From Halobacterium sp. R2-5 (lineage in GTDB: Archaea > Halobacteriota > Halobacteria > Halobacteriales > Halobacteriaceae), in NCBI RefSeq assembly GCF_011734195.1, contig NZ_JAANTH010000002.1, positions 62,001 to 126,000 on the forward strand: a DNA stretch of 64,000 nucleotides, in the 5' to 3' direction. Made by a program: the position numbers and the translations under genes. Below, in pieces: positions 8,356-11,191 of the stretch (the first letter of the stretch is position 1; every line of letters begins with the position of its first letter). The notes under the pieces were generated by a model. It saw only the letters and a program-made list of their open reading frames with translations. It was not told the DNA's origin and did no database searches.

Positions 8356-9492
8356 ATGGCCGACGAACTTAAGAAGGGTTTGGAAGGTGTGCTCGTCGCG
8401 GAGTCGGAGCTGAGTTACATCGACGGCGACGAGGGCAAACTCGTCTACCGCGGGTACACCATCGAGGATCTCGCGCGCGGCGCGAGCTACGAGGAGGTCC
8501 TCTACCTGCTCTGGCACGGCCGCCTCCCGAATCGGGAGGAGCTCGAGTCGTTCCGCGACGACATGGCCGGCCACCGTGAGCTGGACGACGACGTCCTCGA
8601 CCTCGTCGCGGACCTCGCGGCCGCCGACGAGGACCCGATGGCGGCGCTCCGGACGGCGGTCTCGGAGCTGTCCGCGTACGACCCGGACGGCGACGCGGAC
8701 CCGACAGACCGCGAGGCGAACCTCCGGAAGGGCAAGCGCATCACCGCGAAGATGCCGACGATCGTCGCGGCGTTCACACGCCTGCGCGACGGCGACGACC
8801 CCGTCGAGCCCCGCGAGGACCTCGGGCACGCTGCGAACTTCCTCTACATGCTCAACGACGAGGAGCCCGACGACGTGCTCGCGGACGTCTTCGACCAGGC
8901 GCTCGTGCTCCACGCCGACCACGGCCTGAACGCGTCGACGTTCTCCTCGATGGTGACGTCGAGCACGCTCGCGGACCTCCACTCGGCGATCACGTCGGCC
9001 ATCGGCACGCTCGGCGGGAGCCTGCACGGCGGCGCGAACGCGAACGTGATGCGGATGCTCCAGGAGATCGACGAGTCCGGCAAGGAGCCAGTCGAGTGGG
9101 TTGAGGACGCCCTCGAAGAAGGCAAGCGCGTCGCCGGGTTCGGCCACCGCGTCTACAACGTGAAGGACCCGCGCGCGAAGATTCTCGGCGAGCGCAGCGA
9201 GGAGCTCGGCGAGGCCGCCGGCGACACGAAGTGGTACGAGATGAGCGTCGCCATCGAGGAGTACATCAGCGAGGAAAAGGGCCTCGCGCCGAACGTCGAC
9301 TTCTACTCGGCGTCGACGTACTACCAGATGGGCATCCCCGTCGACATCTACACGCCCATCTTCGCGATGTCCCGCTCGGGCGGCTGGATCGCCCACGTGC
9401 TCGAACAGTACGAGGACAACCGTCTCATTCGGCCGCGCGCCCGGTACGTCGGGGAAGAGGACCGCGAACTCGCGCCTCTCGACGAGCGGTAA
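8356..9492 (+). CDS. gltA: Citrate synthase
   Basis: A 378-residue type I/archaeal citrate synthase that condenses acetyl-CoA and oxaloacetate, the entry step of the TCA cycle. Signatures include SYEEVLYLLWHGRLP, SLHGGANANV, GFGHRVYNVKDPRAK with the catalytic histidine, and the C-terminal arginine region. Length is normal. A TATA-like tract (ACACATTAAG, about 8322-8331) lies about 30 bases before the ATG. The last 79 bases are repeated downstream at 9638-9716. Confidence 0.95.
   Translation: MADELKKGLEGVLVAESELSYIDGDEGKLVYRGYTIEDLARGASYEEVLYLLWHGRLPNREELESFRDDMAGHRELDDDVLDLVADLAAADEDPMAALRTAVSELSAYDPDGDADPTDREANLRKGKRITAKMPTIVAAFTRLRDGDDPVEPREDLGHAANFLYMLNDEEPDDVLADVFDQALVLHADHGLNASTFSSMVTSSTLADLHSAITSAIGTLGGSLHGGANANVMRMLQEIDESGKEPVEWVEDALEEGKRVAGFGHRVYNVKDPRAKILGERSEELGEAAGDTKWYEMSVAIEEYISEEKGLAPNVDFYSASTYYQMGIPVDIYTPIFAMSRSGGWIAHVLEQYEDNRLIRPRARYVGEEDRELAPLDER
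9414..9492 (+). repeat. Copy 1 of the duplicated citrate synthase 3' end (in the gene)
   Basis: These 79 bases, through the stop codon, match 9638-9716 at 75 positions. All four differences are transitions. One is a stop change (TAA to TGA), two are synonymous in the gene frame and one gives Asn to Asp. Confidence 0.95.
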
Positions 9493-9596
9493 ACGCGAGC
9501 TATCTACTGCGAGCGCTGGGAGGCGCGAGCAGGCCGACGAACCGTCGAACCCGCGTACTGCGCGGGTGAGGCGGTGAGGACGGCTTTTTGCCGGAG

Positions 9597-9632
9597 CTTT
9601 TTGCAAGCGACCGAAGGGAGCGCTGCAAAAAG
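9597..9632. repeat. Hairpin with GACCGAAGGGAGCG apex
   Basis: CTTTTTGCA (9597-9605) pairs perfectly with TGCAAAAAG (9624-9632). After a bulged A, GCG/CGC also pairs. The hairpin sits just before the duplicated gltA end. The same core recurs near tRNA-Thr, tRNA-Ser and trm1. Confidence 0.8.
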
Positions 9633-9637
9633 GTCCT

Positions 9638-9716
9638 GGACGACCGCCTCATTCGGCCGCGCGCCCGGTACGTCGGGGAAGAGGACCGCGAACTCGCGCC
9701 CCTCGACGAGCGGTGA
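9638..9716 (+). repeat. Copy 2 of the citrate synthase 3' end (orphan fragment)
   Basis: It is 75/79 identical to 9414-9492, including a stop codon (TGA). It has no start or upstream coding sequence, so it is not an expressed gene by itself. The arrangement is that expected of an attachment-site duplication at a gene 3' end. Confidence 0.93.
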
Positions 9717-9961
9717 TCGCGGATCGACACCGAGTAACCCGTTTCAGCTGTCGGCGGTCACTGCCCTCGGACACTCGGTGTCAATCGCCTATCAAGTAGG
9801 CTCACCGGCCCTCAGTCGGGCACTTTCACTTTCACTGCGCTTTGGTTGCTTTTATCACCCTCCCGGCCATTCGTCCAGTCGTCACACGCTCCGGTTCCCT
9901 CGATTCTCGGGGCGGCGGTACACCACCAACCGTTAACAGCGGCTGCGTCGTAGCCGGCGGC

Positions 9962-11191
9962 ATGATCGGACTCGACGACGTCCTCGACGCCCGCGAACGC
10001 GTCGCGGACGTCGCCCGCCACACCCCGCTGGACTACTCGAACACGTTCTCCACGATGACGGGTGCGGAAGTCCACCTCAAACTGGAGTGCTTCCAGCGCA
10101 CCGGCTCGTTCAAGATTCGCGGCGCCACCAACCGCGTCCGCACGCTCTCCGAAGCCGAGCGCGAGGCCGGCGTCGTCACGGCGTCCGCGGGCAACCACGC
10201 GCAGGGCGTCGCGCTCGCGGCGTCCCGGTCGGGCGTCGACTCGAAGGTCGTGATGCCCGAGGCCGCGCCCATCTCGAAGATCAAGGCGACGAAGAGCTAC
10301 GGCGCCGAGGTCGTCCTCCACGGCGTCGACTACGACGCCGCCCAGGCTCGCGCCCACGAGCTCGAAGACGAGGAGGGCCGGACGTACGTCCACGCGTTCG
10401 ACGACGAGCGCGTGATGGCCGGGCAGGGGACGCTCGGCCTCGAAATCGTCGACGACCTCCCGGAGCTCGACACCGTGGTCGTCCCCATCGGGGGCGGCGG
10501 GCTCATCTCCGGCGTCGCGACCGCCGTGAAAGCCCACGACCCCGACGTCCGCGTCGTCGGCGTGCAGGCCGAGGGCGCCTCGACCGTGGCGTCCTCGCTC
10601 CGGAAGGGACAGCCGCAGGCCGTCGACTCCGTGGACACCATCGCGGACGGCATCGCCGTGCGGCGGGTCGGCGAGAAGACGTTCCTGGTCATCCGGGAGC
10701 GCGTCGACGAGGTCGTCACCGTCTCCGACGACGAGATCGCGACCGCGCTGATGCTGCTGCTCGAACGCGGGAAGACCCTCGTCGAGGGCGCGGGCGCGAC
10801 GCCGCTCGCGGCGCTCCTGGAGGGGAAGTTCGTCTACGAGGACGACGAGGTCATCGTGCCCGCGCTCTGCGGCGGCAACATCGACCTCAACCTCCTCACG
10901 ACGGTCATCATGCGCGGGCTCGTCGACCAGGGCCGCTACGTGAAGGTGCGAACCGTCCTGAAGGACCGCCCGGGCGCGCTCAACGACCTCCTCGATGTCG
11001 TCGCCGACGCGCGCGCGAACATCTACGCCATCCAGCACGACCGCACGAACCGCGACATCGCGATGAACGCCACGGAGGTCGAACTCGACCTCGAAACCCG
11101 CGGCCCCGAGCACGTCGACGCGCTCCTCGACCGCATCCGCGACGAGGGCTTCGAAGTCACCGTCCTCAACGGCCCGCGGCCGCAGGAGTGA
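9962..11191 (+). CDS. ilvA: Threonine ammonia-lyase (threonine deaminase) with C-terminal ACT domain
   Basis: A 409-residue PLP enzyme converting threonine to 2-oxobutanoate and ammonia, the first step towards isoleucine or threonine breakdown. The PLP lysine is K51 in GSFKIRGA. ASAGNHAQGVA and the glycine loop PIGGGGLISGVA follow. The last 80 residues or so form an ACT-like domain (YVKVRTVLKDRPGALNDLLD), which suggests amino-acid feedback control. The start is the ATG at 9962; the upstream extension is non-conserved. Confidence 0.92.
   Translation: MIGLDDVLDARERVADVARHTPLDYSNTFSTMTGAEVHLKLECFQRTGSFKIRGATNRVRTLSEAEREAGVVTASAGNHAQGVALAASRSGVDSKVVMPEAAPISKIKATKSYGAEVVLHGVDYDAAQARAHELEDEEGRTYVHAFDDERVMAGQGTLGLEIVDDLPELDTVVVPIGGGGLISGVATAVKAHDPDVRVVGVQAEGASTVASSLRKGQPQAVDSVDTIADGIAVRRVGEKTFLVIRERVDEVVTVSDDEIATALMLLLERGKTLVEGAGATPLAALLEGKFVYEDDEVIVPALCGGNIDLNLLTTVIMRGLVDQGRYVKVRTVLKDRPGALNDLLDVVADARANIYAIQHDRTNRDIAMNATEVELDLETRGPEHVDALLDRIRDEGFEVTVLNGPRPQE

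Follow-up and report, generated by a model that had tools for sequence, protein, structure and literature searches.

Citrate synthase of Halobacterium sp. R2-5 carries a second gene end next to a small palindromic element of a family found across Halobacteriales

Downstream of the citrate synthase gene of Halobacterium sp. R2-5 (genome G000), a small palindromic hairpin is directly followed by a duplicate of the gene's last codons, and similar hairpins are found throughout the order Halobacteriales. What looked like a single oddity in the 64,000-nt stretch of DNA that we analyzed (the window) becomes an instance of a repeated, order-wide genome process. We designate the functional gene end X, the hairpin element E and the second gene end X'. 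On balance, we lean toward reading positions 9493-9716 of the window as E plus X', a unit that would spread and be lost by homologous recombination. The parts of the locus are as follows (positions in the window):

8356..9492, + strand: citrate synthase gene (gltA/citZ), 378 aa, from the open reading frame list; Pfam Citrate_synt, E 8e-135
9414..9492, + strand: copy 1 (X), the functional 3' end of the gene, with stop TAA, from the direct repeat
9493..9583, + strand: spacer containing inverted repeats rich in G+C, such as CCCGCGTACTGCGCGGG from 9550
9584..9592, + strand: first T5 tract (CTTTTTGCC), counterpart of CTTTTTGGT in the order-wide family
9593..9636, + strand: element E, GGAG-CTTTTTGC-hairpin-GCAAAAAGG-TCC, whose outer triplets GGA/TCC pair
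9637..9716, + strand: copy 2 (X'), second citrate synthase 3' end, with stop TGA, directly after E
9717..9962, + strand: native flank on the downstream side, followed by a threonine dehydratase-like gene that starts at about 9963

A base-by-base comparison confirmed the repeat described in an earlier note: positions 9414-9492 and 9638-9716 are identical at 75 of 79 bases, both copies end in a stop codon (TAA and TGA, respectively) and all four mismatches are transitions. From copy 1 to copy 2, one A>G change replaces Asn with Asp (AAC>GAC), two T>C changes are silent (CGT>CGC and CCT>CCC) and a second A>G change swaps the stop codon (TAA>TGA). Direct-repeat detection extended the match in full to 9414-9497 and 9638-9721, at an offset of 224. 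The note had raised a miniature element between the copies as one possibility but had not noticed the 44-nt hairpin that we found there (GGAGCTTTTTGCAAGCGACCGAAGGGAGCGCTGCAAAAAGGTCC, 9593-9636), the last base of which touches copy 2. The RNA fold of 9594-9637 has a predicted energy of -19.8 kcal/mol (z -3.4), and the spacer at 9493..9583 is the counterpart of a variable left hairpin (HP1) in relatives. The citrate synthase end is the sole near direct repeat in the 64-kb window (at least 32 of 40 bases, within 3 kb), and no other gene-end duplication of this kind was found in 400 kb more of the same genome. No Rfam model matched, and a known RNA family was rejected. Elsewhere in the genome, at G000:C1:290407-290495 of locus L053, some 76-89 nt are repeated at an offset of 132; the repeat contains CGCCCGTCTGGGCTTCGATCTCACTCTCACGAGTGAGG, looks non-coding and has no link to E.

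Citrate synthase was searched in 59 relatives, whose 3' flanks we then read. The order gene, spacer, hairpin and second gene end recurred in 2 of the 12 congeners searched (G002 and G012) and the remainder were single-copy. Thus, the empty-site relatives envisaged in the earlier note do exist: G004, G008, G009, G010 and others have one gene end and no hairpin, and the G012 flank past copy 2 corresponds to the G004 flank past its single copy. Because G002 and G012 share the layout with their own sequence variants, the duplicate is not an assembly artefact. Apparent gene-end duplicates in these genomes should not be taken for assembly errors. The two copies in G000 differ from each other at 4 of 78 sites and from the G002 and G012 copies at 13-17 of 78; the divergence between copies within a genome is 3/78 in G002 and 13/78 in G012. 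At one site, copy 2 of both G002 and G012 has an arginine codon, as more distant congeners typically do; copy 1 and the single-copy ends of the clade encode glutamine there. This suggests that copy 2 in these two species may retain the older state and that sister species would have lost theirs. In G012 it is copy 1, not copy 2, that is nearer to the E-less sister G004, so a scheme in which X' is the native end and X the import is not simply true everywhere. Also in G012 (L014), copy 1 has unusual residues (EKGQEFVPLNER) and copy 2 canonical ones (EEERDFVPLDER), and the two copies hardly differ over their first 42 nt, as if conversion had reached part of the sequence.

The repeat had first been read as a scar from the attachment of a tyrosine-integrase element to the end of a gene. 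The direct repeat at the gene 3' end, the restored functional end and the single-copy relatives are all features of such a scar, and integrase attachment sites resemble the arrangement X-E-X' in that a duplicate 3' end keeps the gene intact. Nonetheless, the nearest of ten integrase-type matches in the genome lies about 490 kb away on the contig, and no relative examined carries cargo, let alone the predicted large insert, between the copies. Furthermore, the repeat length depends on the gene, and one constant type of hairpin borders the copies in dozens of unrelated genes, neither of which resembles an integrase site. We rejected this reading, which we regard as very improbable, on the distance to the integrase and the absent cargo, but we retain the proposals in the note of a miniature element and of a gene end that once worked.

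To sample E across the order we used the pattern CCAG-N-TTTTT-(30-60)-AAAAAGGTGG, with the reversed pattern as control. The pattern matched 197 of 392 Halobacteriales genomes, with up to 28 copies per genome, and the reversed control gave zero. In a phylum-wide sample, 23 of the 24 E-positive genomes were within Halobacteriales and the remaining match was chance-like; the family is essentially absent beyond the order. The copies are roughly 45-90 bp, non-coding, palindromic, multicopy and intergenic. As the sampling patterns fix both ends of E, the absolute counts are lower bounds and a copy as divergent as that of the window would be missed; indeed, G000 has no exact CCAGNTTTTT...AAAAAGGTGG match, the window copy included. 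The inner part of E folds better than its shuffles (mean z -3.1, 206 copies) and the outer triplets covary, with CCA/TGG in the order, GTA/TAC elsewhere in the genus and GGA/TCC in the window and two congeners. The window hairpin has the T5/A5 hairpin, the -GG- after A5, the paired outer triplets and the gene-end copy to its right. Judged by this architecture and by the intermediates in the genus, it is a diverged member of the E family.

The element also multiplies, because one Halorubrum-like genus has eight near-identical dispersed copies in each of three species and none in some of its other species. Short, palindromic, intergenic, dispersed and gene-free, E resembles the transposase-free REP, MITE, PATE and SMR elements of haloarchaea and bacteria (PMC3119063, PMC12306157), which share with it recent amplification in single lineages. 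None of the elements in the descriptions that we consulted borders a copy of the 3' end of a neighboring gene. The right end of E is precise, and among E copies only the Halorubrum-like ones show a possible target duplication, a short flanking repeat in place of the gene-end copy. In those loci (L298-L317), E is the right portion of a longer dispersed repeat, CTGTA(N)TGA flanks both sides as a possible 9-bp target duplication, and a second dispersed repeat (GACTGCCCCTTTGAGTCCCACC...CACCTCACACCTCCCCAGC) lies upstream. We found no description of the combination of gene-end copy and hairpin in the literature, in which subscription journals were only partly covered. Viral and plasmid carriage were both rejected: 18 IMG/VR pattern matches were low-GC chance matches, and three haloarchaeal replicons matched in their citrate synthase genes only, leaving the spacer uncovered. 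Near one E copy (L157), there is an array of units of about 131-132 nt with GTTACAGAACYACCCTAGTAGGATTGAAG that is possibly a CRISPR.

The position of E relative to genes points to a function at transcript ends. E is followed by a direct copy of the sequence just upstream in 82 of the 206 sampled copies, compared with a duplicate rate of 0.4% in control pairs of mismatched loci; what is copied is almost always the 3' end of the gene in front. In another 61, a convergent gene has its stop codon no more than 19 nt from E, compared with 7% at control positions, and in 12 the neighbor is a convergent tRNA gene whose 3' end adjoins E. A further 44 have neither a gene-end copy nor such a neighbor and often lie before a promoter, and the last 7 are at contig ends. 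No inverted gene-end copies were seen next to E in the sampled loci. In Haloferax volcanii, T5C tracts end about 95% of transcription in vivo (PMC7237163). Hence, the T5 tracts on both strands and the location of copies lacking a gene-end copy, mostly at convergent genes, tRNA ends and promoters, suggest that E is most likely a bidirectional T5 transcription terminator. Like E, the haloarchaeal T5C terminators have a T5 tract after the stop and a hairpin nearby (PMC7237163); unlike them, E has a T5 tract for each direction, ends that pair and are conserved, and gene-end copies beside it. Its location at convergent tRNA ends suggests that it may serve there as the tRNA terminator. In the tRNA loci (L073, L074, L101, L126, L170, L180, L182, L198, L224, L249, L259 and L260), the right end of E is within a few bases of tRNA-Ala, Pro, Ser, Arg, Lys or Leu genes.

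Gene ends copied next to E belong to about 36 gene families; the 42 gene clusters that we obtained include a few array or alternative-frame duplicates, so that 36-39 is the safer count. The clusters are partly related by descent. The bordering genes include those for the DNA polymerase II large subunit, IleS, IlvD, malic enzyme, GatB, PheT, Spt5, ornithine carbamoyltransferase and citrate synthase. In a tandem-repeat screen of 1.0 Mb, the gene-3'-end repeats at a stop codon were linked to E where inspected, including one T4/A4 variant, and coding-internal repeats had no such link.

The second gene ends have diverged as coding sequences do. Mismatches between X and X' amount to 3.6, 1.9 and 11.8% at codon positions 1, 2 and 3, respectively; counting one event per gene cluster, the numbers are 29, 19 and 107 (P 3e-6 against a neutrally decaying X'). 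The terminal stop is kept by X' in 60 of 65 cases, an internal stop occurs in 1 of 65, and the codon pattern of X' between species equals that of X. These results bear out, across the family, the earlier proposal that the copy once completed a working gene. The nearest relative of X' is the X of its own genome in 35 of 41 cases. Repeated overwriting of X' by X cannot yield the observed ratio of changes among codon positions, since positions 1 and 2 of a free copy would go on changing. Consequently, X' must recently have been, or have been exchanged with, a working gene end, and is no long-decaying pseudogene. The offset from X to X' has no favored frame (25/26/18 modulo 3), which argues against joint translation of X' by readthrough or frameshift, a candidate that we rejected. 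A TnpB guide, with E as its scaffold and X' as the guide part, was another candidate reading.

The codon-position test weakened the alternative of a local duplication set off by the hairpin, in which slipped replication or a plain tandem event copies X in place, alone or together with HP1 and E, and gene conversion between the copies follows. Hairpins are prone to breakage, the right end of E is a constant breakpoint and some loci are tandem arrays of the form X-E-X-E-X with second E copies. The citrate synthase locus of G321, for example, reads X-E1-X-E2-X with two different hairpins and three X copies that are almost the same, one of which ends in a different stop; several relatives are single. 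Furthermore, L122, L133, L088, L258 and G229 look as if X and the hairpin had simply been duplicated in tandem or by unequal crossing-over, which counts against spread by recombination. Yet the changes between X and X' are too synonymous for a neutral copy overwritten from X, the E copies differ at several loci where the X copies are nearly identical, and some single-copy sister loci are without any E. We consider local duplication an unlikely source of these loci as a whole.

Spread by homologous recombination, the reading that we favor, would follow from the layout of the locus itself. An allele with gene-X-E-X' would match an E-less allele on both sides, through the gene body on the left and X' on the right. 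With homology at both flanks, ordinary recombination can carry X-E-X' between cells, whatever lies downstream. Conversely, recombination between X and X' would delete E scar-free. Gene conversion is highly efficient in the polyploid H. volcanii (PMC8223754). The arrangement could have originated from a break at the right end of E that was joined into, or invaded, a gene at a preferred site.

The junction between E and the gene-end copy bears on this first step. X' begins 0-8 nt past GGTGG in 79 of 81 cases: three to five gene bases come immediately, then one or two extra bases, usually C or T, and then the gene sequence resumes. One extra base was present in 31 of 64 testable junctions and two in 14 of 34, compared with an offset of zero in 1 of 65 and 0-3 cases for other offsets. 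The genus-specific E form in G010 has an equal scar (GGTAC|GAC[T]GGGACG). The target position is weakly, but significantly, biased toward NNN|G..A, which fits 10 of 24 genes where 1.8 would be expected. The duplicated length differs gene by gene, yet different families use the identical position of one gene, as in citrate synthase, where X' starts at ...|AGGACAACC in the Haloarcula-like G294 and within a base of it in Halobacterium-like genomes. Homologous exchange alone is no explanation for a scar of 1-2 nt and a repeatedly used gene position. Nuclease cleavage and microhomology joining both fit the first joining of E to a gene and its scar.

The same junction data would agree with a nuclease acting in trans that cuts the gene just before the stop, with repair from the E allele swapping the end and displacing the old end downstream. 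A precedent is found in the WHO elements at FBA1 of the yeasts Torulaspora and Lachancea (PMC7282813), where 3' fragments of the target gene lie downstream, start at the cleavage site (an approximately fixed position) and provide a second arm of homology. Different WHO elements accumulate at a single target, and 1-bp indels remain after repair. However, WHO elements encode their endonuclease and target mainly one gene. In contrast, E is a non-coding hairpin of about 45-90 bp, too short for a LAGLIDADG or intein-like endonuclease, and borders about 36 gene families. Without a nuclease gene, E works like a WHO element but is not one. We identified no candidate cutter, about 36 unrelated genes would need cutting and microhomology joining could equally yield the scar and the target preference; for these reasons we give trans cleavage a small chance. 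By analogy, the hairpin might be the visible part of an order-wide, gene-specific homing-like system, in which a host or mobile trans nuclease would cut conserved genes close to their stops and E alleles with refreshed ends would spread by repair and leave the old end behind a terminator, a broader proposal that we also hold to be doubtful.

Under the recombination reading, essential genes (IleS, GatB, PheT, Spt5, DNA polymerase D, IlvD and citrate synthase) appear to have had their 3' ends repeatedly exchanged beside a mobile terminator hairpin. X-E-X' can serve to trace recombination among haloarchaea in nature and gives a testable case of a tiny non-coding element that would travel on the homology of the adjacent gene. 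In Haloarcula-like genomes, we also observed another type of E, whose left end is TTTTTCGCCCACGTTTTT (L332 in G321, L331 in G229, L330, L334 and L327). At citrate synthase, this type lies either next to X' or against the stop codon of a convergent, putatively TrkA-like gene.
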